The notes beneath the pieces were generated by a model. The model did not search any database and was not told where the DNA came from. It was given only the letters and a program-made list of their open reading frames with translations. The translations under genes and the position numbers were made by a program. A stretch of 64,000 nt of DNA from Pontibacillus chungwhensis (GTDB lineage: Bacteria; Bacillota; Bacilli; Bacillales; BH030062). Shown in pieces: positions 10,183-25,129 of the stretch; within the stretch, counting starts at the first letter, position 1, and each line of letters starts with the position of its first letter. Where the stretch lies: assembly GCF_030166655.1 (NCBI RefSeq), contig NZ_CP126446.1:3348001-3412000 (forward strand). The letters are read 5' to 3'.

Positions 10183-10647
10183 TTATATTCCAAATAAATT
10201 ATAAAAAATTTGTCCATTAGGCAAAGGTACCAAAAACACAAAGCGAAAGAGCAAATAAAACCCTCCACATATAAGTGTTGAACTAGTCCCTGCCTTTACC
10301 CACTTTTGTTTCTTTGACCCCTCATCTTGCAATAGAAAGACTAGCATTGTCACAATAAACAGGCTGGTAATAAGGAAGCCTACATACCATAATCCAATCC
10401 CGTAGAGGACCATTCCGCCTATGACTGCATAGATCTTCTCCTTATCCACCCCTTCAAATGGTCGATTTGTCACTGGTATCCAGAAACTCTTAACAAGGTA
10501 TAAAATACTTAGTATTAAGGAGATCAAACTTATCACTTCAGGAAAGATACCACTCATTTCACTTAGCTGCCTTGCTTCATAATAAGCATATGAAAAGATG
10601 AACACCAGTACAGAGGCTATAACTGTCTCTTTATTAAATCGCCTCAT
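10183..10647 (-). CDS. Tripartite tricarboxylate-type transporter, small membrane subunit (TctB family)
   Basis: About 154 residues with four membrane segments, low sequence conservation and the size expected of TctB. It is recognised mainly by position directly after TctA. AAGGAG stands 7-8 nt before ATG 10647, giving a 14-bp overlap with the tctA end, which implies translational coupling; the upstream in-frame start at 10677 is less likely. With TctA and TctC it would form a secondary importer driven by an ion gradient. In sulfolactate degraders the equivalent system (SlcHFG in Chromohalobacter salexigens) takes up sulfolactate, and the neighbouring genes suggest that role here. Confidence 0.82.
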   Translation of the reverse strand: MRRFNKETVIASVLVFIFSYAYYEARQLSEMSGIFPEVISLISLILSILYLVKSFWIPVTNRPFEGVDKEKIYAVIGGMVLYGIGLWYVGFLITSLFIVTMLVFLLQDEGSKKQKWVKAGTSSTLICGGFYLLFRFVFLVPLPNGQIFYNLFGI

Positions 10648-12175
10648 TTCGACTCTCCTTCCTGCTATCAGATTCATTTTGGTCCTTTGTTCCTTTAAAA
10701 TAGCTATATAAAGGAGATAATAACGAAATTATACACATAATGATTAAGATTAAGGAAATCGGACGTCCAAAGAACATCCCCCAAATGTTTCCTTGCGCAC
10801 CACCAATCATGATTGATTGGGCTAGCCCCTCTTCAGCAATAGGCCCCAAAATTAAACCAAGTACAATTGGAGCAGGGTTAAAACCAACCTTCTTTAAATA
10901 GTAAGCGAGTATACCAAAGCCAAGCATAAAAAATACATCTAGTACGTTATTTCGTATAGCATATGCTCCAATAATTGTTAGAAACAGAATGCTTGGTGCA
11001 AGATAAAATGTAGGCAAATTTAATACCTTCCCAATATAGCGCGCTCCAATAATTCCAGAAAATAACATAACAACGTTAGCAATGATAAAAGATATTAAAA
11101 AAGTGTAAATAAGAGCTCCGTGTTCTACAAAAAGATTAGGCCCAGGTCTAATACCTTGGATCATAAGCGCCCCCAACATAATAGCCGCAGGGGGAGCTCC
11201 GGGAATCCCTAGAGCGAGCAGAGGTACAAGAGATCCGCCAACTTCTGAATTATTGGAGGATTCAGAAGCCACTACCCCATCTACGTTTCCTTTCCCAAAC
11301 TCATTTTTGTTCTTTGAGAAACGAACAGCAGAATCATAAGAAAGGAGAGCTGCTACATTCCCTCCTGCACCGGGGATAATCCCAGTAAAAAAACCGATAA
11401 TAGAAGAACGTAAAACTAGAATGGGGCGCTTTATAATATATAGAAACATAGATTTCATACTAGATTGGTGATTTTCATTTCCTTCACTCGCTTTTTTTGA
11501 GACCGCCTTTTCAACCATTCCGATTACTTCAGGCAAACAAAAAAAGGCGATAAGCACTACAATCAGTTCCAAACCTGCTTGTAGTGGGGCAAACCCAAAT
11601 GAATATCGTGCCTCTCCTCCAACTGGTGCAAGACCAATTGTACTAAGCATCAACCCTATTCCACCCCCTATTAAGCCTTTTAATAGGGAGCCACTTGAAA
11701 GGGTAGCTATCATAGTAAGACCCAAAATAGCGATCCAAAAGTACTCCGGAGGGCCAAAACGTAATGCCAAAGTTGCAAGAGGGCCTGTCAGAAATAATAA
11801 AGCGATACCACCAAGCACCCCGCCGATCCCCGAACTAATGGCTGCTGTTTTGAGGGCTTTTTCCGCCATACCCTTCTTGGTTAACGGATACCCATCAAAG
11901 GTTGTTGCTATAGCAGAAGGTGTACCTGGCGTGTTGATTAAGATAGCTGATATACATCCTCCATAAATCCCCCCTATATACAATCCCCCTAATGTAATTA
12001 ACGCTGTTTCTGCAGACATTGTGAATGTAAAAGGTAACAATAAAGCTAATGCCATCGTAGTCGTTAGTCCAGGCAAAGCTCCAACAACGATTCCCCCTAC
12101 TACACCTGCAATCATAAGCAGGATATTAATTGGTTGAAGCAAAGCATTTATGATTTGCGGAAGAAATTCGAACAT
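10634..12175 (-). CDS. Tripartite tricarboxylate-type transporter, large membrane subunit (TctA family)
   Basis: 513 residues with about eleven membrane segments. The opening GVVGGIVVGALPGLTTTMAL and the repeated GIIPGAGGNVAALLSY are the TctA family signatures, as are NTPGTPSAIATTFDG and ALGIPGAPPAAIMLGALMI. It forms the transport channel of a three-part, binding-protein-dependent secondary importer for carboxylates. A G-rich ribosome site lies before ATG 12175. It sits between tctC and tctB in one minus-strand operon next to sulfolactate catabolic genes. Confidence 0.92.
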   Translation of the reverse strand: MFEFLPQIINALLQPINILLMIAGVVGGIVVGALPGLTTTMALALLLPFTFTMSAETALITLGGLYIGGIYGGCISAILINTPGTPSAIATTFDGYPLTKKGMAEKALKTAAISSGIGGVLGGIALLFLTGPLATLALRFGPPEYFWIAILGLTMIATLSSGSLLKGLIGGGIGLMLSTIGLAPVGGEARYSFGFAPLQAGLELIVVLIAFFCLPEVIGMVEKAVSKKASEGNENHQSSMKSMFLYIIKRPILVLRSSIIGFFTGIIPGAGGNVAALLSYDSAVRFSKNKNEFGKGNVDGVVASESSNNSEVGGSLVPLLALGIPGAPPAAIMLGALMIQGIRPGPNLFVEHGALIYTFLISFIIANVVMLFSGIIGARYIGKVLNLPTFYLAPSILFLTIIGAYAIRNNVLDVFFMLGFGILAYYLKKVGFNPAPIVLGLILGPIAEEGLAQSIMIGGAQGNIWGMFFGRPISLILIIMCIISLLSPLYSYFKGTKDQNESDSRKESRNEAI

Positions 12176-12199
12176 TCATGCCCCCCCTTTCTCTTATGA

Positions 12200-13162
12200 T
12201 TATTCACTATATTTCTCTACTAAAGGTTTCATTTCTTCTACTTTTTGATTGATATACTCTTGAGATTCATCAGCACCCATGGATTTTGGGATAAATCCTT
12301 CTTTAATCATTTCTTTCTTCACCTTTTCATCATTGGCAATTTCGAGAAATGCATCTTCTAATTTTTTAATGATCTCCTCATCCGTCTTTGGTGGAACCGC
12401 TACTCCACGATCAATCGAAGCAGTCATGTTATAGCCAAGGTCTTTAAATGTAGGGATATCTGGCATTGGTTCAAATGTACCTTCAGATCCAATCCCTAAC
12501 ACTTTCATGTCATCTTGGTATTTCACTAAATCACTTGAATTAACTAAGACAGCATCCGTATTCCCACCTAAAAATGCTTGAATGGATGGTGCAGCCCCGC
12601 TGAAAGGAACATATTCAGCTTTAAAATCAGCCAAGTCCTGCAATTGCATAAGAGTGATATGATGCCCCGAATACGTTCCGGAACCTGCCACCGTTAGCCC
12701 TCCAGGATTTTTTTTCGCTTGATCTATAAAGTCACTTAAGCTTTCAATACTACTATCTTTTGAAACGGCGAGCGCGATTGGTGTGGCTTGGAAAATCGCT
12801 ACAGGATTAATTTCCTCAGTTTCGTAACCAGCACTATCCCTTGCTAGAGGTTGTAACACGATATGAGGTATGTTAATCCCTGTTATGAAATAACCATCTG
12901 GACGCTTCCCGACTAGTTCTGACCATCCAATAGCACCTCCGCCCCCATCCTTATACGTAATAACTACTTTTTGATCTAATATCTCCTCAAGCATTGGCTG
13001 TTGTCTTCTTGCTTCAATGTCTGATTGTCCACCAGGATTGAAAGGAATACTATAGGTAATTTGTTTAGATGGATACTTAGAAACCGCGGAACCTGCACTG
13101 CACCCTGTAATCAAAATAGTTACCATTAAAACCATCATTAAACTCAGTACGTTGACTTTCAT
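12200..13162 (-). CDS. Tripartite tricarboxylate-type transporter, substrate-binding lipoprotein (TctC/Bug family)
   Basis: 320 residues. The N-terminus is a lipoprotein signal with lipobox LITGC, placing Cys21 as the membrane anchor, which suits a Gram-positive cell. The mature part is a Bug-type binding protein, with PFNPGGQSDIEAR and the GGGGAIGWSELVGKRPDGY loop that contacts the ligand carboxylate. GGGGAGG precedes ATG 13162. It is the first gene of the tct operon, with a cre site and a candidate regulator site upstream. By context the ligand is probably 3-sulfolactate or a related sulfonate. Confidence 0.9.
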   Translation of the reverse strand: MKVNVLSLMMVLMVTILITGCSAGSAVSKYPSKQITYSIPFNPGGQSDIEARRQQPMLEEILDQKVVITYKDGGGGAIGWSELVGKRPDGYFITGINIPHIVLQPLARDSAGYETEEINPVAIFQATPIALAVSKDSSIESLSDFIDQAKKNPGGLTVAGSGTYSGHHITLMQLQDLADFKAEYVPFSGAAPSIQAFLGGNTDAVLVNSSDLVKYQDDMKVLGIGSEGTFEPMPDIPTFKDLGYNMTASIDRGVAVPPKTDEEIIKKLEDAFLEIANDEKVKKEMIKEGFIPKSMGADESQEYINQKVEEMKPLVEKYSE

Positions 13163-13243
13163 TTATATTACCTCCCCTTTTTAAATCCCCTTCGACTATT
13201 GCATCTGAATACTTACTACAAGACCAAACGATGAGCGGTGCGA

Positions 13244-13257
13244 TGTAATCGCTTACA
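13244..13257. promoter_or_regulatory. Candidate cre (CcpA) site before tctC
   Basis: TGTAATCGCTTACA is a palindrome with one mismatched pair, and it matches the cre consensus closely. It lies 82 bp upstream of the tctC start, within the region between tctC and suyA. Carbon catabolite repression of sulfolactate use is the natural reading. Confidence 0.7.
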
Positions 13258-13261
13258 AATT

Positions 13262-13325
13262 ACTTTTCAGTGGCTCAACCATTCATTAACGTTTATTAAA
13301 CCACTAGTTGTTAGATTATTCAATA
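13262..13325 (-). promoter_or_regulatory. Candidate regulator-binding region before tctC
   Basis: The block GTGGCTCAACC, then TTATTAAACCA and ATTATTCAATA, recurs in the same order at 17954-18005, upstream of the slcC start. The better-aligned 35 bp (13291-13325 against 17971-18005) match at 27 positions. Both blocks lie upstream of minus-strand operons of the same island, so they are probably shared regulator sites or a duplicated promoter region. Other DNA in 13163-13578 is A/T-rich promoter sequence. Confidence 0.5.
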
Positions 13326-13513
13326 TTATCTAACAATTATCTGTATACATTTTTGTAATACAAGTTATTAAAAAACTATATATATGAGGAAATGTAATGA
13401 CTATTAATGAAGAAAAAAATCAGTCTTTAGTTAAAAATGTTGAATTTTAAAAAAAATCAGATAACTTATTGATTTTTCATAGTATTGGTGGTTTAATTTA
13501 ATTGAATCATAAA

Positions 13514-13534
13514 TTGGTTGGGTCACCTAACCAA
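13514..13534. promoter_or_regulatory. Candidate GntR operator before suyAB
   Basis: A 21-bp palindrome begins TTGGTTGGG and ends CCTAACCAA, with 9 of 10 pairs matching around a central C. Eighteen of its 21 positions recur, inverted, at 17946-17966 before the slcC-gntR-comC operon. It lies 45 bp before the suyA start, consistent with an operator for the FCD-type GntR protein encoded in the island. Confidence 0.6.
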
Positions 13535-13578
13535 CAATAAGGATATTTCCTTTTACTTACTTTTAAGGAGCTGAAATC

Positions 13579-13923
13579 ATGGGGAAAAGTTATAATTCTG
13601 GAGTTGCAACGAGCGAAAAAGAATCATCCAGTCAACATGTACAAACTCACAAATTTCTAATCCACCATAAAGGGGATCACGTAGGTGTAGCCACAAACGA
13701 AATCCAAGAAGGGGAAAAAGTAATCGGCGTTTACATGGAGGATGACTCAACAGTAGAAGTCACTTCAAAAGGTACCATCCCTTTAGGGCACAAAATAGCC
13801 CTACAACCATTATCTACTGGAGAAGAAGTCGTCAAATATGGAGTGCCCATCGGTCTTACAACTACTGATTGGCAAGTAGGCGATTATGTACACACTCATA
13901 ATATGAAAACGGCGAGGTGGTAA
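13579..13923 (+). CDS. suyA: (2R)-3-sulfolactate sulfo-lyase small subunit, SAF domain
   Basis: 114 residues, mostly one SAF domain (about 24-110) of the altronate-dehydratase small-subunit type: [16 protein letters not shown], then [15 protein letters not shown], then [22 protein letters not shown]. The N-terminal 20 residues are a polar extension. AAGGAG precedes ATG 13579, and the gene ends 1 nt before suyB. With SuyB it would form the lyase splitting (R)-sulfolactate into pyruvate and sulfite in the cytoplasm. The SAF domain alone does not separate SuyA from UxaA-N; the partner gene and neighbours decide it. A candidate GntR operator lies upstream. Confidence 0.82.
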
Positions 13924-13924
13924 G

Positions 13925-15082
13925 ATGAATCAACCCTTATACGGTTACAGAAGAGAAAACGGGAAAGTCGGAATTAGAAATCATGTCATTCTTTTACCTG
14001 TGGATGATATCTCAAACGCAGCTTGCGAAGCCGTTGCGAATAATGTCAAAGGTACGTTAGCCCTTCCGCACGCATATGGAAGACTTCAATACGGTGAAGA
14101 TCTAGATCTTCATTTCCGTACAATGATTGGGGTTGGGGCAAATCCGAATGTAGCTGCTGTTGTCGTGATTGGTATTGAAGAAAATTGGTCAAAAAAGATT
14201 GCCGAAGGAATAGCTGAGACAGGGAAGCCAGTTTCTTACTTCTCTATCGAAGGAAATGGCGATCTCGAAACGGTGAAGAACGCTTCTTGGAAAGCGAAAG
14301 AATACGTGCAGTGGGCATCCGAATTGCAACGTGAACCAATCGAGCTAAGTGATTTAACGGTAAGTATTAAATGTGGTGAATCTGATACAACAACAGGGAT
14401 GGGATCATGCCCAACTGTATCCCAAGCCGTTGATCGACTTGTGGACGCAGGAGCGACCGTATTCTTCGGAGAGACATCAGAGTTAACAGGTGGAGAGCAT
14501 TTAATAGCAGATCGCATGGCAACTCCTGAACTTAAAGAGAAATTTATGGCGGTTTACAATGACTATGTGGGAGAAATTGAATCAAAAGGTGTTGACCTTC
14601 TTGGTTCTCAACCCACTCAAGGGAATATTGCTGGTGGTCTATCAACCATCGAGGAAAAAGCGCTTGGGAACATTGCCAAAACCGGTACAAAAGAAGTAGT
14701 TGGCGTCTTAGACCCTGCAGAAGCGCCATCTAATGGGGCTGGCCTTTACTTTATGGATACATCTTCAGCCGCTGCGGAGTGTATCACCCTTATGGCTGCA
14801 GCTGGTGCAGTCGTTCATTTCTTCCCAACTGGACAAGGGAATATTATTGGGAATCCCATTGAGCCGGTCATTAAAGTAACAGCCAACCCTTATACAGCGG
14901 GGACTATGAGTGAACATATTGACGTCGACGTTAAAGGACTATTAACTAGAGAGCTGTCTTTAACCGACGCAGGTGATAGCCTAATGGACTATCTTTATCG
15001 TACTGTAAACGGCCGACTCACAAGTGCTGAAGCGCTCGGTCATCGTGAATTTGTTATGACGAAATTATACAGAAGTGCTTAA
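13925..15082 (+). CDS. suyB: (2R)-3-sulfolactate sulfo-lyase large subunit (UxaA family)
   Basis: 385 residues, the length of SuyB. The motifs [81 protein letters not shown] and [14 protein letters not shown] are those of the UxaA-C/SuyB family, with the conserved Cys of KCGESD as a probable metal ligand. The DDISNA and PHAYGRLQ blocks are the ones I associate with sulfolactate lyases rather than altronate dehydratase. The product pair would be pyruvate and sulfite. Neighbours (TctABC uptake, ComC and SlcC dehydrogenases, YeiH exporter) match known sulfolactate clusters, which supports the call strongly. Confidence 0.85.
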
Positions 15083-15087
15083 AAACA

Positions 15088-15133
15088 CAGAAAAAAGCTG
15101 TCTTCTCCCATAAGAGAAGGCAGCTTTTTTCTG
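15088..15133 (+). terminator. Terminator after suyAB
   Basis: CAGAAAAAAGCTG, with CTTCTC, pairs with GAGAAG and CAGCTTTTTTCTG around a short loop, forming a near-complete long hairpin with a T run. It separates suyAB from the converging comC gene. Confidence 0.88.
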
Positions 15134-15172
15134 TTGGCATATACGAAACTAAAAAAGGAGCTAATGCTCCTT

Positions 15173-16237
15173 TTATTGAATACACTTAAGTTCATCCGGA
15201 AAAGAAACCCCAAATTCCTTTCCAAGACTCGTTAACTCTTCGATTACATCCTCAGATAAGGGGATTCCTTCCAGAGACCTTTTTAAGTACTCTTTTCTCC
15301 TTCTTTCTCCAGGGTATCGAATATCCTCTACCCCCGGGGCCTTCGGTGTAGCTTTCATTTCTAGAAGCAATTCATTAATCGTTTCTTCAAATGTTTCAAG
15401 AGTCATAAATTTTTCTATGTCCATCAAGATAAAGAAGTGTCCGATATTAGAGGGTTGCTCATTTGAGTTATTATACATACTGTTTACGTTCGGTCCAAAG
15501 GCTGCTCCGGAAAGAACACCCGTTAAAACTTCAACAGCAAGAGCCAAAGCAGACCCCTTAGCTCCACCGAGGGGTAAGACCGCTCCTTTTAGCGCTTCTG
15601 CAGGGTCCGTGGTATTCTCACCCAACTCATTAACCGCCCATCCCTCAGGAATTTCCTCATGCTCCTTGTTTGCCAAGATAATCTTCCCTCGAGCTACCAC
15701 ACTAGTAGATAAATCGATCACAATAGGGGATTCATTCCCTGTCGGAAATCCAAAACCAATTGGATTTGTCCCAAAAAAAGCGGCCCTACCTCCCCAAGGT
15801 GCAATCCCAGGAGGAGAATTTGTAAAGGCAATGGCTGCTAGCCCCTCTTCAATTGCTTTCTGGCAATAGAAGGAGGCCGTTCCGAAATGGTTACTATTTT
15901 TAATAGCAACACCGGCTAGCCCAGTTTCTTTCGCCATCTCCATTCCTCTGTGAAGCCCTTCATAACTCACCACATGACCAAGTCCATTGTCACCGTCCAC
16001 CATCAAGACAGAAGCACCGCTCTGATCAGCTCTTATGGATGGTGAAGCTTTAATCCGTCCATCCTTGAGACGTTTACAATAAACAGACAAGCGACTAACA
16101 CCATGACTATCCACGCCCTCTAAATTTGCTCGAACGAGTGCCTCAGCTACGACATCGCCGTGATCTTCTCTTACGCCAAGTTCTGATAATACTTGTCTCG
16201 AGAACATGTGAAGCCTTTCAGAAGAAAATATTCGCAT
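15173..16237 (-). CDS. comC: (R)-sulfolactate dehydrogenase-type malate/L-lactate dehydrogenase family protein
   Basis: 354 residues of the Ldh_2 family, NAD(P)H-dependent 2-hydroxyacid dehydrogenases unrelated to classical Rossmann LDH. Signatures are NLEGVDSHGVSRL, with the catalytic His, NSNHFGTASFYC and FFGTNPIGFGFPT. ComC proteins interconvert sulfopyruvate and (R)-sulfolactate, in coenzyme M biosynthesis and, with SlcC, in sulfolactate racemisation. The start is 1 nt past the gntR stop, with GAGGAGAGG as ribosome site, so it is the last gene of slcC-gntR-comC. Malate or ureidoglycolate dehydrogenase would be alternatives by sequence alone; the context favours ComC. Confidence 0.8.
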   Translation of the reverse strand: MRIFSSERLHMFSRQVLSELGVREDHGDVVAEALVRANLEGVDSHGVSRLSVYCKRLKDGRIKASPSIRADQSGASVLMVDGDNGLGHVVSYEGLHRGMEMAKETGLAGVAIKNSNHFGTASFYCQKAIEEGLAAIAFTNSPPGIAPWGGRAAFFGTNPIGFGFPTGNESPIVIDLSTSVVARGKIILANKEHEEIPEGWAVNELGENTTDPAEALKGAVLPLGGAKGSALALAVEVLTGVLSGAAFGPNVNSMYNNSNEQPSNIGHFFILMDIEKFMTLETFEETINELLLEMKATPKAPGVEDIRYPGERRRKEYLKRSLEGIPLSEDVIEELTSLGKEFGVSFPDELKCIQ

Positions 16238-16238
16238 C

Positions 16239-16949
16239 TTACCTCTCCTCTTCGGTTAAATGACTTGTAATTGAGTTCTCCACACTTTCTAAATGGTATT
16301 TCATCTTGTCCCGAGCCTTTGATGGATCCTTATCTTTCATCGCTTGAACGATTTCCCGATGCTCTTTAACTGACTTACGGGCGCGGCCTTCAATCTTATT
16401 CGACTGAAAACGAGTCTCATGCAACAGATCTATTAAGTTGTGCATGACCCTTACCAAAACGATATTATCTGAAATAGTAGCTAAATTTAAATGAAATTCA
16501 TGATCAAGATTAGACAGCTCATCATAGTCTGTCTCTTCCGTTATAACTGATTCCGCCCTTTCTACTATTCTCTCCAGTTGACTCATTTGCTCTTCACTAG
16601 CACGGTTAACAGCCCATTCGACCGCATTGATTTCTAAAATATTGCGAATAGCAAACAAGTCTTTTATATGGTCTTCTGACACAAAGAAAAAAGAAGTCAT
16701 CTTTCTAATTTGTTCGTCTTCTGCTGCAATAAATATTCCTGTACCGTGTTTAATGACCAAGTATCCATAAGCTTCTAATATCTTATACGCTTCCCGTACT
16801 GTATTTCTACTTACTTCTAATTGGGTAGCCATTTCTCTCTCCCCTGGAATTTTATCGCCAGGTTGATATTCTTTATTCATAATCCTTTTTTTTATATGGT
16901 CTGCTACTTGTTCGGAAATTCCTTTTCTCTTAAACTCCACTGGTTCCAT
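16239..16949 (-). CDS. GntR-family regulator, FadR subfamily (FCD domain)
   Basis: 236 residues. A winged helix occupies about 8-75 (QVADHIKKRIMNKEYQPGDK, EVSRNTVREAYKILEAYGYL), and an all-helical FCD ligand domain follows, with DHEFHLNLATIS and HREIVQAMKDKD as likely metal-binding His/Asp elements. FCD regulators usually bind a small carboxylate and act as repressors. It lies in the middle of slcC-gntR-comC, and a palindrome occurs before both this operon and suyAB, so it is the likely controller of sulfolactate use. GGGAGAG precedes ATG 16949. Confidence 0.88.
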   Translation of the reverse strand: MEPVEFKRKGISEQVADHIKKRIMNKEYQPGDKIPGEREMATQLEVSRNTVREAYKILEAYGYLVIKHGTGIFIAAEDEQIRKMTSFFFVSEDHIKDLFAIRNILEINAVEWAVNRASEEQMSQLERIVERAESVITEETDYDELSNLDHEFHLNLATISDNIVLVRVMHNLIDLLHETRFQSNKIEGRARKSVKEHREIVQAMKDKDPSKARDKMKYHLESVENSITSHLTEEER

Positions 16950-16970
16950 GTGTATCTCTCCCTATTTAAA

Positions 16971-17921
16971 TTATACGACACACAAGGAAGGACTACCCTT
17001 TAATATTTTAGATACTTCTTTAGCAACTAACACTGATGTCCTAACTTGTGATTCATTCGTGAGGCCTGCAATATGCGGGGTAATGATGGCATCTGGCTGT
17101 AACAATAAAGGATGCTCTGAATCAATGGGCTCTTTTTCAAGCACATCCAAAAAAGCCCCTCCGATATGCTTTTCCCGTAAGGCTTTTGCTAAAGCTTCTT
17201 CATCGACTATACCACCCCTTGACGTATTAATAAGGAAAGCATTCGGTTTCATTTCTTTTAGGGTTTTTGAATTTAAAAGATAGGTAGTCGACGGATTTAA
17301 TGGAACATGAATAGAAACAAAATCAGAAATAGCAAGAACTTCTTCTAAGGAATTCTTAACATTGACTCCGGTCTCGGCAACAATATGTTCATACTCTGTA
17401 ATGAAAGGGTCATACCCCACTACATCCATACCAAATACTTTCGCCCTTTTAGCCACACGGTGGGCTATTTCACCAAGACCGATCAGCCCTATTGTTTTCT
17501 CATATATTTCTCCACCTGTATGCCTTCTTCTATCCCATGTACCTTTTAAAACATCCTGCGAGGCTGTAAAAAGGGATCGGTTAGAACTAAGTATTGCACT
17601 CATCACATATTCGGCCACTGATGTTGCATTGGCGTTTTTAGCGAATACCACATCTATGCCCTTTTCTTTCGCTGCTTTTATATTTATATTATCAAGCCCG
17701 ACTCCCAGTCTTCCGATTACCTTCAACTTCTCTCCTGACTGAAGTAATTCTTCATCTACTTTCGTTTGGTTTCGAACAATTAAACCATCAAATTCTTTAA
17801 CAGACCTTACCAAGCGTTCCCGATCAGTCCAAAGCTCCTCATCGTACACAACCTCAAACCCCTGGTCCTTTAATTCATCTATTCCCTCCTGCCAAATTAC
17901 TTCACTAACTAAAACCCTCAT
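16971..17921 (-). CDS. slcC: (S)-sulfolactate dehydrogenase-type D-isomer 2-hydroxyacid dehydrogenase
   Basis: About 316 residues of the D-isomer-specific 2-hydroxyacid dehydrogenase family. The NAD fold is marked by GLIGLGEIAHRVAKRAK. The catalytic residues are visible as Arg in NTSRGGIVDEEAL, Glu in DVLEKEPI and His in ITPHIAGLT. SlcC of Chromohalobacter oxidises (S)-sulfolactate to sulfopyruvate, and ComC then reduces it to the (R) form cleaved by SuyAB. A phosphoglycerate dehydrogenase role is possible by sequence, but there is no ACT domain. GAGGGGG sits 6 nt before ATG 17921; starts at 17927 and 17966 are less likely. Confidence 0.8.
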   Translation of the reverse strand: MRVLVSEVIWQEGIDELKDQGFEVVYDEELWTDRERLVRSVKEFDGLIVRNQTKVDEELLQSGEKLKVIGRLGVGLDNINIKAAKEKGIDVVFAKNANATSVAEYVMSAILSSNRSLFTASQDVLKGTWDRRRHTGGEIYEKTIGLIGLGEIAHRVAKRAKVFGMDVVGYDPFITEYEHIVAETGVNVKNSLEEVLAISDFVSIHVPLNPSTTYLLNSKTLKEMKPNAFLINTSRGGIVDEEALAKALREKHIGGAFLDVLEKEPIDSEHPLLLQPDAIITPHIAGLTNESQVRTSVLVAKEVSKILKGSPSLCVV

Positions 17922-17945
17922 ACCCATCCCCCTCTTATATTCATA

Positions 17946-17966
17946 ATGGTTTAGTGACCCAACCAA
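17946..17966. promoter_or_regulatory. Candidate GntR operator before slcC-gntR-comC
   Basis: Read on the minus strand, TTGGTTGGGTCAC followed by AAACCA matches the suyA operator at 18 of 21 positions. It lies 25 bp from the slcC start, a position suited to repression. A further A/T-rich block (17971-18005) resembles the sequence before tctC. Confidence 0.6.
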
Positions 17967-18074
17967 TTACACTTATTAAACCATTAATTTTCTAATTATT
18001 CAATAGTTTCTGATTTTGTTTCTTTGTCACCTGATCAAACGGGTGTATTTGAGTGTACGGTTATCATTCTCCTC

Positions 18075-18118
18075 TATAAGTGACATATAGAATCTGTATA
18101 AGTGACAGCTAAATTCTA
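18075..18118 (+). promoter_or_regulatory. Candidate LysR-type binding region before the YeiH-type exporter
   Basis: TATAAGTGACA occurs twice (18075-18085 and 18097-18107), exactly 22 bp apart, and ATAGAAT (from 18087) pairs with ATTCTAT at the right end. Paired sites two helical turns apart are common for LysR proteins, and the next gene but one encodes such a protein. Confidence 0.4.
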
Positions 18119-18130
18119 TGCTAATGTAAT

Positions 18131-18144
18131 TGTAAGCGCTTAAA
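18131..18144. promoter_or_regulatory. Candidate cre (CcpA) site before the YeiH-type exporter
   Basis: TGTAAGCGCTTAAA matches the ideal cre palindrome at all but one or two end positions. It lies 24 bp upstream of ATG 18168, overlapping or just following the promoter. Confidence 0.7.
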
Positions 18145-18167
18145 ATATTATAAGGAGGAACTCATTA

Positions 18168-19211
18168 ATGGAACACGCCACACAAAAGACTACGGCCGTT
18201 CATGCACTACCTAAAAAAGGCTTATTTTCAACATCAATGCTTGGAGGGGTTCTGTTTACGTTCTTTATCGCCGTCCTGGGTTATGGTTTATCCGAACTAC
18301 GAGGGTTCTCTCTTGTTGGCCCCCTCGCTTGCTCAATTCTTATAGCTATAGCATGTAGGCAAATATGGGATTACCCCGAACATTTACGAGTTGGGATTGA
18401 ATTTTCAGCTAAGAAACTCCTAAGGCTAGCAATCATTTTATACGGATTAAAGTTGAATATTGGCGTCATCATGAGCGAAGGCTTGCCTTTATTGTTAAGA
18501 GGAACAGCTACCATTGTATTTGCCATTGCACTTACCTTGCTTATTGCGAAATGGATAAAAGCAGACATGACTGTCGCTTTATTATTAGGAGTAGGTACAG
18601 GGGTTTGTGGAGCAGCTGCCATTGCTGCTGTTTCGCCCATTATAAAATCCAAAGAGGAAGATACTGCGATTGGAGTTGGGATGATCGCCCTTGCAGGAAC
18701 GATCTTCGCTATTCTTTACACACTCGTCCGCCCCTTGTTGCCTATCAGCATGACAGACTACGGGGTATGGGCAGGGATCAGTCTTCATGAAATCGCCCAC
18801 GTTGCATTGGCAGGAGCTCCTGCCGGTGAAGAAGGATTAGCTATGGCCTTATTATCTAAACTAGGGAGAGTTTTTCTTCTTGTCCCTTTATGCTTCTTAC
18901 TAATGTTTTGGATGAAGAAAAAGGGTTCAAGTCAATCTAGCGAAGACTCAAACGTTCCCTTCCCGTGGTTTTTAATCGGTTTTATTGGAATGAGTTTGTT
19001 TGGGAGCTTTATTGTAGGAGAATATATCACTCTTAGTGAAAAAGTGATTGCATTCATCGGCAACGCTACTACTTTTATTTTGACAATGGCCATGGTTGGT
19101 TTAGGACTTAATGTAAGTTTCAAATCTATTAGAACGAGAGCTTTACGCCCTTTGATAGCTATGCTCATAACTTCTGTCCTCTTATCCATCCTTACTTATT
19201 TCACTTTGTAA
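18168..19211 (+). CDS. YeiH-family putative sulfate/sulfite exporter
   Basis: 347 residues with about ten membrane segments. GVGTGVCGAAAIAAVSPIIK and GISLHEIAHVALAGAPAG are the signature blocks of the YeiH family (conserved hypothetical 698, putative sulfate exporters). Members often sit beside sulfonate-degrading enzymes, where export of sulfite is proposed. Here it is 0.2 kb from slcC in a sulfolactate cluster, so sulfite produced by SuyAB is the likely cargo. AAGGAGG precedes ATG 18168. A cre site and paired repeats lie upstream, and a LysR gene follows on the same strand. Transport direction and substrate are inferred. Confidence 0.8.
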   Translation: MEHATQKTTAVHALPKKGLFSTSMLGGVLFTFFIAVLGYGLSELRGFSLVGPLACSILIAIACRQIWDYPEHLRVGIEFSAKKLLRLAIILYGLKLNIGVIMSEGLPLLLRGTATIVFAIALTLLIAKWIKADMTVALLLGVGTGVCGAAAIAAVSPIIKSKEEDTAIGVGMIALAGTIFAILYTLVRPLLPISMTDYGVWAGISLHEIAHVALAGAPAGEEGLAMALLSKLGRVFLLVPLCFLLMFWMKKKGSSQSSEDSNVPFPWFLIGFIGMSLFGSFIVGEYITLSEKVIAFIGNATTFILTMAMVGLGLNVSFKSIRTRALRPLIAMLITSVLLSILTYFTL

Positions 19212-19281
19212 TTTTAAGGAGGTTTTTTTAAGGTAAGAGCGAATGGTTATGGAAACAGGTTCTAGAAGGGGGAGGGTCTTA

Positions 19282-20196
19282 TTGAATTTTTCGCATTTAA
19301 AAGTTTTTTACACCGCCGCTTTAAAAAAGAACTTTTCTGAAACGGCAAAAAGCCTTCATATGTCACAACCTAGCGTAAGTTTGCATGTGCGCCAATTAGA
19401 GGATTCTCTTGAAACCGAATTATTCAAGCGGACGACCAAACAAGTCTACTTAACTCCGGCGGGAGAGTTGTTATTCAAATCCGCTGAGAGCATCTTAAAT
19501 CAAGTGAATGACATCAAACGGGACATTCAGCACCTTTCAGGAAGCGTACATGGAAATCTGGTTATAGGAGCTAGTTTAACTATTGGTGAGCATATCCTCC
19601 CCTACATGTTTGGGGCCTTTCAACAAGCCTATCCTCAAATTAACATAACCCTTAAGATCTATAATTCAGAGCAAATCATAGACAAATTAAATGGCGGGGA
19701 ATTGCACATCGGTTTCATCGAATCAATGATTGCTTATCCTGAATTTCTGCAAAAGGCTTTTCAAAGCGATGAATTAATCGTCATTTCAAAACCCAATTAT
19801 TATTCTGGTTCTTCTCTTTCAACGAATGAGCTGTTCTCCCTCCCTTTTATTTCAAGAGAGGTGGGGTCTGGGACAAGGCAAGTTATAGAAGAATCGCTAC
19901 GCCAGAACCAACTTAATCCCTCAAAACTACAAGTTGTGATGGAACTCGAATCAACAGAATCCATTAAATCTGCGGTCGAATCCGGCATGGGGATATCCAT
20001 TATTTCAAAAGCAGCTGTTGAGAAAGAACTAAGACTTGGTACACTTGAACAACTATATCTCCCAGAACTTAATCTGAAACGCTCCTTGTACGCTATTTAC
20101 AAGAAACATCATTTTACATTAGCAGCTGAAGCGTTTTTGGAGTTTGTGACACATCGCCCTCCTGAAGCCAAACGATCGAAAAATGCTTTGAATTAG
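19282..20196 (+). CDS. LysR-family transcriptional regulator
   Basis: About 304 residues. The N-terminal winged helix shows FYTAALKKNFSETAKSLHMS, QPSVSLHVRQLED and ELFKRTTKQVYLTPAGE. The effector domain (about 90-295) has the GNLVIGASLTIGEHILPYMF start typical of the CysL/YeiE group. The frame opens at 19243, but GGGGGAGG lies 5 nt before TTG 19282, and the conserved domain begins there. YeiE-type regulators are commonly linked to YeiH exporters, and CysL-type ones respond to sulfur signals. It probably controls the exporter gene just upstream. Confidence 0.87.
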   Translation: MNFSHLKVFYTAALKKNFSETAKSLHMSQPSVSLHVRQLEDSLETELFKRTTKQVYLTPAGELLFKSAESILNQVNDIKRDIQHLSGSVHGNLVIGASLTIGEHILPYMFGAFQQAYPQINITLKIYNSEQIIDKLNGGELHIGFIESMIAYPEFLQKAFQSDELIVISKPNYYSGSSLSTNELFSLPFISREVGSGTRQVIEESLRQNQLNPSKLQVVMELESTESIKSAVESGMGISIISKAAVEKELRLGTLEQLYLPELNLKRSLYAIYKKHHFTLAAEAFLEFVTHRPPEAKRSKNALN

Positions 20197-22039: not shown

Positions 22040-25000
22040 TTACTTCTCTAGTGCCAGTTTAAGCTGATGATCTCCAAGAGTAACCTCTTTCATCTCATCA
22101 ACTTCTCCAAGCGTTAAGTTCTTTACAAGTACATTTTCACGAATTAACTCTTCGTTTTCCTTAATGGCTTTCTGCACATCTTCGTCCCCATTAAGAGAAA
22201 GATTCACTCGCAGCTCAATAGGAAGATCAAGTTGCTTCCGCTCATCCTGAATCGCGCGAATGACTTCTCGAGCAAGTCCTTCAAGTCGAAGCTCTTCAGT
22301 GATTGCCGTATCTAATAAGACGTGGAAATCTTGATTAGATGCCATAGAAAGTCCTGCATCAGCTACGCGCTCAACGTTAAGAAGGTCAATAGGTACCTCA
22401 ACCTCTTCCTCACCTACAGGCACAAGGACTTTACCGTCTTCAACGACCTTAGCTGCTTGTTCATCCGTAAGGGATTCGAGGTATTTCTTCACGCTTCCGA
22501 CGTTTTTCCCTAGTACAGGACCTGCTTGACGGAAGTTCAACTTCACTTCATAACGAACAAATTCCATAGACGATTGTTTAATGACAACTTCTTTCACATT
22601 AATCTCGTCACGAATGATATCACTGTATTTGTCTAAAGCTTCTCCCTGGTCTGGATTAACAGGAATCACCACAAGTTCAGCTAAAGGTTGTTTCGTCTTA
22701 ATGGCTTCCGTGTTCCGAACTCCCCTTGCCAGTTCAACGACCTGAAGAACAGAGGCCATATCCTCTTCAAGCTTAGGGTTACGTAAGGCCGTATCCACTT
22801 CAGGGAAATCGGATAAGTGAACACTCTCACCCGTTAGGTTCTCATAAATATCCTCAGCCAAGAATGGTATAAACGGCGCCATTAACTGACTTAACTGGCT
22901 CAGTACTTTATGAAGCGTATGGTAAGCTGCCTTTTTAGATTCTGACATCCCTTCTTCCCAGAAACGATCTCTGGAACGACGGATATACCAGTTACTTACT
23001 TCATCCACATACTTCTCCAATTGCTTAGCTGCTTTCGTAAAGTCATAGTCCTCAAGAGCTTCCTCAACAGCCTTCGTGACCGTTTGTAACCTTGAAAGCA
23101 CCCAGTGATCTAAAAGAGTAGCCTCTCCTTGATCATTCTTATCATAGGTGTAGTGATCGATCGTCGCATAAAGCGTGTAGAACCCATGGATGTTAACTAG
23201 GGTGTCAATAACCTTAGACTTTGCCTCAAGCACAACTCGTTCTGAGAAACGTTTGTTATTCCATGGCGCACTATCTGCAAGTAATGCCCACCTAAACGAG
23301 TCAGCTCCAAACTTATGGACGACGTCAGTAGGATTCAGTGCGTTACCTTTACTCTTGGACATTTTACGTCCCTCTTCATCCAAGATATGACCAGTTGAGA
23401 GAACACGCTTATACGGAGCCCTTCCTGTAAACAACGTTGATACAGCAAGAAGACTATAGAACCATCCACGCGTCTGGTCAATTCCTTCACAAATCACATC
23501 TGCCGGGAATTGTTTCTCAAATTGCTCCTCATTTTCAAATGGATAATGTTGCTGAGCAAATGGCATGGAACCTGAATCAAACCACACATCAATCACTTCA
23601 GGAACACGCTTCATCGTTCCCTCACACTTCTCACATTTCACCTCTACACGGTCGACATAAGGTTTATGAAGCTCAACATCCCCAATATCACCAATGGCTT
23701 TATCCTGCAGATCTTTCTTACTGCTTGGAGCATACTGATGATCACAGTCTTGACACATCCAAATCGGGAGAGGAGTTCCCCAGAAACGGTTACGTCCAAT
23801 ATTCCAGTCCACCATATTCTCAAGGAAATTACCAAATCGTCCATCCTTAATGTGATTTGGGTACCACTCAACCGTTTGATTGTTCTCTAGGAATTTATCT
23901 TTCAATTCCGTTGTTTTAATGAACCAACTCTCGATTGCGTAGTACAGCAACGGAGAATCACAACGCCAACAATGAGGATAGCTGTGCTCATATTTCTCCT
24001 TATGGAAAAGAAGCCCTTCTCCAGCCAGGTATTTCACAATATCAACATCACAATCTTTCACAAAACGTCCTTCGAATGGAGGAATATCGGAGGTATAACG
24101 CCCCTGACCATCTACAACATTAAAGAACGAAAGGTTATGTTCTTTAACGAGATTATAGTCATCTTCACCATAAGCAGGAGCGATGTGAACAATTCCCGTT
24201 CCGCTTTCGGCATTAACGAAATCAGCTTCCACTACAAAATGACCACGCTCAGGTTTCACGAATGGGAAAGGAGCTATGTATTCCATTCCATTAAATTCGC
24301 TACCTTTATGGGTAGAAACTACTTCATAATCTTCACCAAAATGTTTCTCAGCTAGCGCTTCTGCCACAATATAAATTTCTTCTCCGCTTCGGACTTTTAC
24401 ATAATCCAAATCTTTAGAGACGGCTAAAGCTACATTGGCTGGTAATGTCCAAGGAGTGGTAGTCCATCCAAGGAAGAATTCATGATCAGTTCCTTTTATT
24501 TTGAACTTAGCGGTAGCAGATAAATCTTTCACATCTTCATACCCTTGAGCCACTTCGTGAGAACTTAACGTAGTTTGGCAACTCGGACAATACGGAGTCA
24601 CCCTATGGCCCTTCGAAAGCAAGTTCCGCTTATGAAGGTCACTCAAAATGTACCAAACGCTCTCAATATAACGGTCCTGTAGCGTGACATACGGATCATC
24701 CATATCGAGCCAGTACCCAATGGATTCTGTAAACTCCCGCCACTCTTTCTCATAGTTGAAGACACTTTCCTTACATTTCTCAATAAATTTCTCTACACCA
24801 TATTCTTCGATCTCTTGTTTACCTGAGATCCCAAGCTGCTTCTCCACTTCGAGTTCAACTGGAAGTCCATGTGTGTCCCATCCCCCTTTACGGAGAACCT
24901 GATAGCCCTGCATCGTTTTATAGCGTCCCACAAAGTCCTTAATCACACGACCTAGAACGTGTCCCGCATGAGGCAATCCATTCGCAGTAGGCGGCCCTTC

Positions 25001-25129
25001 ATAAAAGACAAACGTCTCAGCGCCAGCTCGTTCTTCCATAGATCGTCTGAACACATTTTTTGTGTTCCAATAATGCTTCACGCGATTCTCGCGCTCAACT
25101 GCCACTTCCTTCGTGTTTACACTCCGCAT
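22040..25129 (-). CDS. ileS: Isoleucine--tRNA ligase, type 2
   Basis: 1029 residues. The class I signatures are present: a HIGH-type motif in [11 protein letters not shown] (about 53) and KMSKSKGN (about 595). The editing domain lies between them ([29 protein letters not shown]), and an anticodon-binding domain follows. Length, the [13 protein letters not shown] start and the absence of the C-terminal Cys-rich zinc motif place it with the eukaryote-like type-2 enzymes, some of which tolerate mupirocin. GAAAGAGGTG precedes ATG 25129. A T-box leader lies upstream, so expression responds to uncharged tRNA-Ile. Whether the genome also has a type-1 copy cannot be seen. Confidence 0.95.

Follow-up and report, generated by a model that had tools for sequence, protein, structure and literature searches.

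A putative sulfolactate-catabolic island with its own 19-bp operator in Pontibacillus chungwhensis

Results

Genes of the island

A stretch of 64,000 nucleotides of Pontibacillus chungwhensis (contig NZ_CP126446.1, positions 3,348,001 to 3,412,000, forward strand; hereafter the window, to whose first letter all positions without a locus number refer) contains a block of ten genes, here called the island, which probably serves the catabolism of 3-sulfolactate. The initial annotation had placed genes of the Tct, Suy, dehydrogenase, GntR, YeiH and LysR kinds in this block. All of them were recovered among ten intact open reading frames (ORFs) at 10183-20196, in the order tctB-tctA-tctC (minus strand), suyA-suyB (plus), ldh_2, gntR and slcC (minus) and yeiH-lysR (plus). 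The host genome comprises 4.17 Mb in two contigs and is estimated to be 100% complete. Nine of the ten proteins exceeded a Pfam gathering score (TctB, TctA, TctC, GD_AH_second/GD_AH_C for SuyB, Ldh_2, 2-Hacid_dh, FCD plus GntR, Cons_hypoth698 for YeiH, and LysR).

The minus-strand genes at the left border encode the small membrane subunit TctB (10183..10677; Pfam TctB, 55.5 bits), the large membrane subunit TctA (10634..12175; Pfam TctA, 484 bits) and the solute-binding lipoprotein TctC (12200..13162; Pfam TctC, 130 bits), whose translation shows a lipobox-like LITGC. A tripartite tricarboxylate transporter is thus complete, with sulfolactate as its predicted substrate. SuyA (13579..13923) and SuyB (13925..15082), both on the plus strand, are followed on the minus strand by an Ldh_2-family dehydrogenase with a proposed ComC-like role (15173..16237), an FCD-domain GntR protein of the FadR subfamily proposed as island repressor (16239..16949), and a SerA-like, D-isomer-type 2-hydroxyacid dehydrogenase with a proposed SlcC role (16971..17927). 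The latter most likely starts at the ATG at 17927 rather than at the TTG of the raw ORF at 17966. The last two genes, on the plus strand, encode a protein of the YeiH/SuyZ family (PF03601; 18168..19211), 32% identical to E. coli YeiH over 266 amino acids and proposed as sulfite exporter, and a YeiE-like LysR protein (19243..20196), 31% identical to E. coli YeiE over 291 amino acids and proposed as sulfite sensor for yeiH.

Identity of the sulfo-lyase

The initial annotation had taken the central pair for SuyA and SuyB and had suggested placing SuyB in a tree with UxaA-family proteins. In this tree (118 rows, quick mode, with the Shimodaira-Hasegawa-like approximate likelihood ratio test, SH-aLRT, as sole support; four outgroup loci were entered twice) the window protein fell inside a SuyB clade of 93 rows (SH-aLRT 100, separating branch 2.78) and not with sugar-acid dehydratases. 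The clade also holds the proteins of Cupriavidus pinatubonensis (locus L114), Paracoccus versutus (L113) and S. mexicanum (L112). Outside it are 23 other rows of the host's order as well as E. coli UxaA and GarD, whose branches are very long, so that their exact place is unsure. Residues were taken as diagnostic for SuyB where a column was at least 97% fixed across 66 SuyB rows from other phyla and the residue did not occur in 23 UxaA/GarD rows; with the Bacillota rows set aside, this gave 43 columns, and the window protein agreed at 38 of them. It is 64% identical to the protein of the C. pinatubonensis hpsNO-suyAB cluster. Among 299 genomes of the order, 90 gave a SuyB match at E<=0.001, of which ten (the host included) reached at least 73% identity and the next at most 43%. 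Plasmid records showed a similar break: 13 of the 314 with a SuyB match lay at 60-80% identity, and among the 60 records listed the values dropped from 61.5% to 38.9%.

SuyA has no Pfam match and only a weak, partial match to a galactarate dehydratase model (27.5 bits). It is a separate small subunit, 35-69% identical to the ORF before suyB in SuyB loci, and its gene ends at 13923, directly before the suyB start at 13925, as in the reference loci. Tree, diagnostic residues and reference loci therefore support the prediction that the pair is SuyAB, the (R)-3-sulfolactate sulfo-lyase. NCBIfam names were dropped as evidence for SuyB, SlcC and ComC, since the scores were under the cut-offs of the equivalog models shown.

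A related pair at L133 and L135 (39-40% identity) was rejected as SuyB because it carries only eight of the 43 diagnostic residues. In these loci (L133:9200-19900, L135:200-12500) the UxaA-family pair is sister to SuyB and stands with SlcC-like and Ldh_2 proteins, a succinate-dehydrogenase/fumarase cassette and TauE; judged from its sequence, it is possibly a second kind of C3-sulfonate lyase.

The operator and other regulatory sites

Two copies of a 19-bp operator lie in the island: TGGTTGGGTCACCTAACCA at 13515..13533 (plus strand), 45 nt upstream of suyA, and TGGTTGGGTCACTAAACCA at 17947..17965 (minus strand), about 20 nt upstream of the slcC-like start. The pattern TGGTTGGGTCACYWAACCA matched without mismatch at these two places in the window, compared to none in 100 shuffles. 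The looser pattern with up to one mismatch found only the same two sites in the 4.17-Mb genome and none in three genus-mates or in genome G106, whose GntR is only 36% identical; G179 had one match (C8), outside its island contig, and a reversed control pattern had none in 12 genomes. At up to two mismatches, the operator was present in all 14 SuyB loci with a GntR 53-59% identical to that of the window (39 sites in 284 kb), which are not all independent, L034 and L120 being near-identical. At this stringency there was no site in eight other Bacillota or near loci, five of which have a GntR with 36-42% identity, in the 12 UxaA loci from the order, or in the 1.22 Mb covered by 70 SuyB loci from other phyla. 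In 13 of the 14 loci, a site lies ahead of suyA at a distance of 16-36 nt from the estimated start; the start estimated for L126 is placed beyond the site. Further operator sites, some of which deviate from the strict pattern by three to four mismatches, lie ahead of slcC, of yeiH and, in seven of the eight loci having one, of a DctPQM importer operon of the tripartite ATP-independent periplasmic (TRAP) type.

The usual site of the FadR subfamily is, in the passage of PMC4494728 that describes it, a palindrome with TKGT/ACMA boxes and a GT-AC spacing of 3 nt. Because the operator differs from this form, its link to GntR rests on co-occurrence, from which we infer that the FCD GntR protein binds it. 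A third operator, upstream of tctC, is not claimed; only a site with five mismatches was detected 100 nt upstream of this gene. In L035, an operator-like site (2436, two mismatches) lies upstream of a gene for a sodium:dicarboxylate symporter (L035:1082-2389), a possible alternative sulfonate importer. L123 (G220) carries two SuyAB copies in one island (L123:7266-13684), each SuyB 86% identical to that of the window, with a TRAP importer behind the second; the first of its suyA copies is without an operator.

Sites resembling the catabolite-responsive element (cre) gave six strand-matches at three places in the window with up to two mismatches to the consensus, compared to 1.19 expected. The palindrome TGTAATCGCTTACA upstream of tctC (13244..13257, no mismatch) is a candidate CcpA site, and TGTAAGCGCTTAAA (18131..18144, plus strand, one mismatch) lies just upstream of yeiH. 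These two sites suggest catabolite repression under CcpA control. A direct repeat with TATAAGTGACA and a 22-nt spacing (18072-18115), also upstream of yeiH, is a possible binding site for the YeiE-like LysR protein. Consensus promoters were dropped as evidence (16 found, compared to a mean of 25 in shuffles).

The two dehydrogenases

The trees of the dehydrogenases cover the proteins of the fetched loci, among which SlcC and ComC characterised from Chromohalobacter salexigens do not figure. In the Ldh_2 tree, the window protein belongs to a Bacillota clade of 21 rows with support 100, made up of 20 rows from Bacillota SuyB loci and L133. In the SlcC tree, the Bacillota clade joins a proteobacterial SlcC-like clade with modest support (82), the acidobacterial and actinobacterial rows lying outside. 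With the host's own SerA, the SlcC-like protein shares 41% identity; a passage of PMC6303947 places characterised SlcC in or beside the SerA clade. The Rossmann stretch of the window protein reads GLGEIA...GYDP and ends in an aspartate, which favours NAD as cofactor.

Fate of sulfite

Membership of the putative exporter in the YeiH/SuyZ family is given by a PF03601 domain over the cut-off and by the YeiE-like regulator next to it. It scored 146.8 bits (TIGR00698 subfamily cut-off 232.6) and the LysR protein 189.5 bits (NF040889 YeiE cut-off 480); the latter was just over the cut-off of NF040786, named 'selenium metabolism-associated' (259 of 250 bits). For Salmonella, PMC12880088 states that YeiE activates yeiH on sulfite and that yeiH is the main sulfite-resistance gene.

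The host genome has no Oxidored_molyb domain (found in 5 of 17 genomes and 9 of 14 controls), no NIR_SIR domain (11 of 14 control genomes positive) and no MoaE of molybdenum cofactor synthesis (found in 8 of 11 genomes and 11 of 14 controls). As regards the Oxidored_molyb family, the remark in the initial annotation that the window holds no sulfite oxidase gene thus applies genome-wide. On this basis, the host is not expected to oxidise sulfite by a molybdenum enzyme or to reduce it by a siroheme enzyme, and with these sulfite-consuming families lacking, sulfite must leave and sulfolactate would be a carbon source. This backs the earlier proposal of sulfite export, for which the YeiH/YeiE-like pair is, from its sequence, the likely exit. 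Genomes G008 and G278 are without MoaE, too. The host, its genome being without a NIR_SIR match, may need reduced sulfur.

Distribution and origin

The ten window proteins were compared with 104 loci: 84 SuyB loci from named records or plasmids (L032-L115), eight from genomes of the order (L120-L127) and 12 loci of other UxaA proteins (L128-L139). In the 19 Bacillota SuyB loci, Ldh_2 and GntR were always found (19/19 each), the SlcC-like protein in 17 and YeiH, at identities as low as 30%, in 14. One of the three near loci (L042, L043, L048) has both dehydrogenases. Among 70 SuyB loci of other phyla, 56 contain at least one of the two dehydrogenases (41 both); the 14 with neither include short contigs but also L113 and L114. 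None of the remaining window genes was found in the controls L128-L132 and L134, and L136-L139 had only a weakly similar 2-hydroxyacid dehydrogenase (33-36%).

In the sample of 299 genomes, the seven other members of the host's genus gave no SuyB match. Among the best 80 of 590 confirmed SuyB loci from named records are those of Cytobacillus oceanisediminis, Rossellomorea aquimaris, Sporosarcina globispora, Paenibacillus piri and P. thalictri, with 83-89% identity. In 2018, SuyB was reported in 12 Firmicutes genomes, the Firmicutes examples named in the relevant passage being sulfate or sulfite reducers (PMC6278857). No report of a sulfolactate-catabolic island in aerobic Bacillota turned up in the literature searched, mostly at the level of listings or passages.

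The site of the island is empty in two genus-mates (L154, L155), where an MmpL gene (83-84%) adjoins a gene for a flavin adenine dinucleotide-dependent monooxygenase (90%) with 0.4-0.7 kb between them and no match to the ten island proteins in the stretches compared; in a third (L156) only MmpL (62%) was found. The island was either gained at this site or lost there, and gain is favoured because SuyB is absent from the seven other genomes of the genus. GC content was discarded as an argument for transfer, the difference between island (40.4%) and flanks (41.7 and 42.3%) being too small; the empty site is the argument instead.

A candidate 3-sulfopropionate cassette in relatives

L121 (G179) has the same gene order as the window from suyA to lysR. 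Beside its island lies an operon that encodes three subunits of succinate dehydrogenase/fumarate reductase type (iron-sulfur, membrane cytochrome and flavoprotein) together with the two halves of a class-I fumarase; an operator copy with two to three mismatches lies ahead of this operon. Such an operator stands before the cassette in all three loci having both the cassette and a window-type GntR (L121, L035, L038); the cassettes of L133 and L135 have none. Cassettes were located at L121:11224-15767, L038:4246-8733, L035:3513-9253, L043:7078-10693 and in further loci; L038 comes from Bacillus sp. T33-2 and L035 from strain FJAT-29937. The flavoprotein, called SdhA-like here, occurs with 51-82% identity and a coverage of at least 0.9 in 11 of 92 SuyB loci, L121 included, and with a fumarase-like pair in ten of the 11. 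These loci span Bacillota, Chloroflexota (L043, with suyA, suyB, fumarase, sdhA and sdhB in succession), Actinomycetota (L054, which lacks the fumarase) and Alphaproteobacteria. Four alphaproteobacterial loci have a fumarase-like protein of only 34-37% identity, which falls beside E. coli TtdA and not among the Bacillota rows.

Within the order, SdhA-like genes at E<=1e-150 are confined to three of the 299 genomes (G179, G107, G212) and adjoin SuyB (G179) or its sister protein (G107 and G212, i.e. L133 and L135). As 12 of the 299 genomes carry SuyB or the sister protein, the chance of co-occurrence in three of three is 5e-5. The window's own genome yielded no SdhA-like flavoprotein at this threshold. 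In the tree, the 13 SdhA-like rows fall together opposite E. coli SdhA and FrdA (100/100, with only these two outgroups); they keep the active-site stretches compared, with Gly-Val for Ser-Leu after the GGN motif.

3-Sulfopropionate, 3-sulfoacrylate and 3-sulfolactate are the sulfonate analogues of succinate, fumarate and malate. It is conceivable that the operator marks a C3-sulfonate regulon of Bacillota, whose extended form (L121, L035, L038, L043 and others) makes 3-sulfopropionate a growth substrate, a proposal from sequence to which we give slightly less than even odds. The succinate-dehydrogenase-like complex would oxidise 3-sulfopropionate to 3-sulfoacrylate, which the class-I fumarase would hydrate to 3-sulfolactate, and SuyAB would then yield pyruvate and sulfite, copying the sequence from succinate via fumarate to malate. 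On the other hand, the cassette may act on true dicarboxylates, because the fumarase-like alpha part exceeds the cut-off of the ordinary fumarate hydratase model (340 of 276 bits), which speaks against 3-sulfopropionate. Degradation of 3-sulfopropionate was, according to a passage of PMC11489063 (2024), unreported apart from a thesis on Roseovarius nubinhibens, with a route via sulfoacrylate and sulfolactate. No genes for the steps to sulfolactate were named in the literature searched, largely without subscription journals and bioRxiv. If the proposal is correct, the cassettes would be the first genes for the route that this passage cites only from the thesis (PMC11489063).

Outside the island, the window encodes at 22040-25129 an isoleucyl-tRNA synthetase of the second type. 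Its top scores were to models of mupirocin-resistant MupA/MupB, under their cut-offs (1309 and 1282 of 1900), and it is over the ileS cut-off; it was not found in the three 20-kb stretches around MmpL in genus-mates. The median isoelectric point of the window proteins (5.6, 46 ORFs) did not discriminate with respect to halophily.

Discussion

The best explanation of the data is that the block is a horizontally acquired sulfolactate-catabolic island, which would allow its host to feed on sulfolactate and to dispose of the sulfite (probability about 0.86). Its foundations were observed directly, namely the membership of SuyB in its clade, the conserved gene content, the operator with its distribution, the empty site and the absence of the named sulfite-consuming families. 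In the proposed mechanism, TctABC would import 3-sulfolactate, whose (S) form, sulfopyruvate and (R) form would be interconverted by the SlcC-like, NAD-type enzyme and Ldh_2. SuyAB would cleave (R)-sulfolactate to pyruvate, which enters central metabolism, and sulfite, which would leave through the YeiH-family protein, turned on by the YeiE-like regulator at rising sulfite. The GntR protein is predicted to repress suyAB and the slcC-gntR-ldh_2 unit at the operators upstream of suyA and slcC and might be released by sulfolactate or sulfopyruvate. CcpA would act through the cre-like sites, which fits a carbon source.

Several points weigh against this explanation. It builds on sequence, from which growth and enzyme activity are predicted. 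SuyB is below every NCBIfam cut-off, its sole match being galactarate dehydratase (143 of 731 bits), and no SuyB model came up. The best NCBIfam match of the SlcC-like protein is phosphoglycerate dehydrogenase (335 bits, cut-off 454), and that of Ldh_2, L-sulfolactate dehydrogenase (NF040650; 286 bits, cut-off 500), is closely followed by ureidoglycolate dehydrogenase (279 bits). The Ldh_2 clade of Bacillota stands apart from 48 proteobacterial and actinobacterial ComC-like rows (support 96). Since the island protein does not group with these, its ComC-like role is argued from the neighbourhood, and orthology to proteobacterial ComC was rejected. The importer is the least certain part because TctA and TctC occur at 60% identity or more in only four of the 19 Bacillota SuyB loci (L041, L124, L125, L126); the YeiE-like LysR protein, at 50% or more, also occurs in only four. 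The operator is palindromic but, unlike the usual sites of the FadR subfamily, has an inner GT-AC spacing of 1 and outer TGGT/ACCA boxes separated by 11 nt. Three TauE-family genes elsewhere in the host could also export sulfite, and the transport activity of YeiH itself is still unproven according to PMC12880088. Finally, a sulfite dead end is not general, as the SuyB carriers G179, G220 and, weakly, G106 have an Oxidored_molyb match.

The separate clade of Ldh_2 leaves some room for the view that this enzyme is not a sulfolactate dehydrogenase. In that case, either the SlcC-like protein and SuyAB would work by themselves on a single enantiomer or Ldh_2 would serve another 2-hydroxyacid. The pair is indeed not obligatory: L035 and L038 have Ldh_2 without an SlcC-like protein, as have 15 of the 70 SuyB loci of other phyla. 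We nevertheless regard this view as unlikely, since Ldh_2 is near suyAB in all 19 Bacillota loci and NF040650 is its best NCBIfam match, though under the cut-off and barely ahead of ureidoglycolate dehydrogenase. Racemisation by enzymes in the roles of SlcC and ComC is, from context and family and not from orthology to characterised enzymes, plausible.

Sulfolactate might also be only an internal intermediate, with cysteate, 2,3-dihydroxypropane-1-sulfonate (DHPS) or 3-sulfopropionate imported and converted by genes elsewhere. Other SuyAB loci carry hpsNO (L114), an aldehyde dehydrogenase (L115) or the succinate-dehydrogenase-like/fumarase cassette, and the SlcC-like enzyme could use sulfopyruvate from cysteate as well. 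However, none of these additional genes was recognised in the island, the host genome has no further operator at up to one mismatch, and the flavoprotein of the cassette has no match there at E<=1e-150. As two hydroxyacid dehydrogenases together fit racemic sulfolactate itself, an upstream substrate appears rather improbable.

A uronate or aldarate pathway with an altronate/galactarate-type sugar-acid dehydratase is hardly tenable. In its favour, Pfam and NCBIfam know the SuyB domains only as domains of such dehydratases, the only solved relative found is GarD, and other acid pathways contain TctABC and Ldh_2 as well. Against it, the tree, the diagnostic residues and the identity gap among the plasmid records listed place the protein in SuyB, and none of the ten genes was recognised as a hexuronate isomerase, aldolase or kinase. 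Desulfonation modules are sulfur sources in other bacteria, yet it is just as improbable that the island supplies sulfur instead of carbon by assimilation of sulfite, given the cre-like sites and a genome estimated to be complete without NIR_SIR, in which no siroheme sulfite reductase is expected.

With the sulfolactate-catabolic island thus preferred, the initial annotation, which had assumed the route of C. salexigens, holds with respect to SuyAB, to an island with importer and exporter and to sulfite leaving as such; the racemising step, in view of the diverged Ldh_2 clade, does not reach beyond the plausibility stated above. Its suggested link to sulfolactate from spores is weakened as far as a product of the host itself is concerned, because phosphosulfolactate synthase ComA is absent from the host and the nine other SuyB carriers of the order sample. 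ComA was detected at E<=0.001 in 50 of the 299 genomes (49 over the cut-off). Mutual exclusion of SuyB and ComA is not supported: about 1.7 overlaps were expected and none was seen, the chance of which is 0.16.

Sulfolactate is a product of the breakdown of sulfoquinovose and DHPS. A route of this kind in Bacillus-type bacteria, complete, self-contained and probably ending in sulfite export, would add degraders that release sulfite to their neighbours. The operator makes the pathway traceable and draws in other importers (TRAP, possibly the dicarboxylate symporter) and, in some relatives, the candidate genes for 3-sulfopropionate. With its sharply defined regulon and the sulfite dead end, the island is easy to test.

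Comparison with known systems

The slcC-comC-suyAB pathway of C. salexigens, reportedly described by Denger and Cook in 2010, shares with the island SlcC-type and ComC-type dehydrogenases, SuyAB and, presumably, a tripartite importer. Unlike it, the island resides in a Bacillota host, has its own operator and GntR, and no sulfite oxidation is expected. Its dehydrogenases have diverged: in the SuyB loci fetched from other phyla, C. salexigens not among them, the best matches reach 37-49% (SlcC-like) and 31-43% (Ldh_2) identity. The C. salexigens pathway is cited in passages of PMC9594981 and PMC12421959, the latter also counting S. mexicanum among the carriers of SlcC, ComC and SuyAB.

In P. 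versutus (L113), genes for GntR, SuyA, SuyB (65%) and a PF03601-type 'sulfate exporter' are side by side as in the island. Transhydrogenase and sulfite oxidase genes are nearby and neither SlcC nor Ldh_2 is in the stretch, whereas the host of the island, without a gene of the sulfite oxidase type, would export sulfite. A suyAB-exporter cluster is said to have been described for Paracoccus pantotrophus NKNCYSA by Rein in 2005; SuyZ is presumably the name of the PF03601-type exporter of Paracoccus. The DHPS degrader C. pinatubonensis (L114, on a plasmid of strain HN-2, with hpsN, hpsO and suyAB) has SuyAB (SuyB 64%) in common with the island but no SlcC-like, Ldh_2 or YeiH-family gene in the stretch. 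The plasmid of Rhodococcus koreensis (L115) is likewise from a Gram-positive host and encodes SuyB (71%) together with hydroxyacid and Ldh-family dehydrogenases; this host is an actinomycete, and the stretch carries an aldehyde dehydrogenase and a major facilitator superfamily transporter instead of TctABC and YeiH. The adjacent PF03601 and YeiE-like LysR proteins resemble, with 32% and 31% identity to E. coli, the YeiE-YeiH sulfite-resistance pair of Salmonella and E. coli (PMC12880088). The E. coli pair is divergent, while yeiH and lysR of the island are on the same strand, beside a pathway predicted to produce sulfite. The enzymes of the island are of known kind; the 19-bp operator is the new finding.

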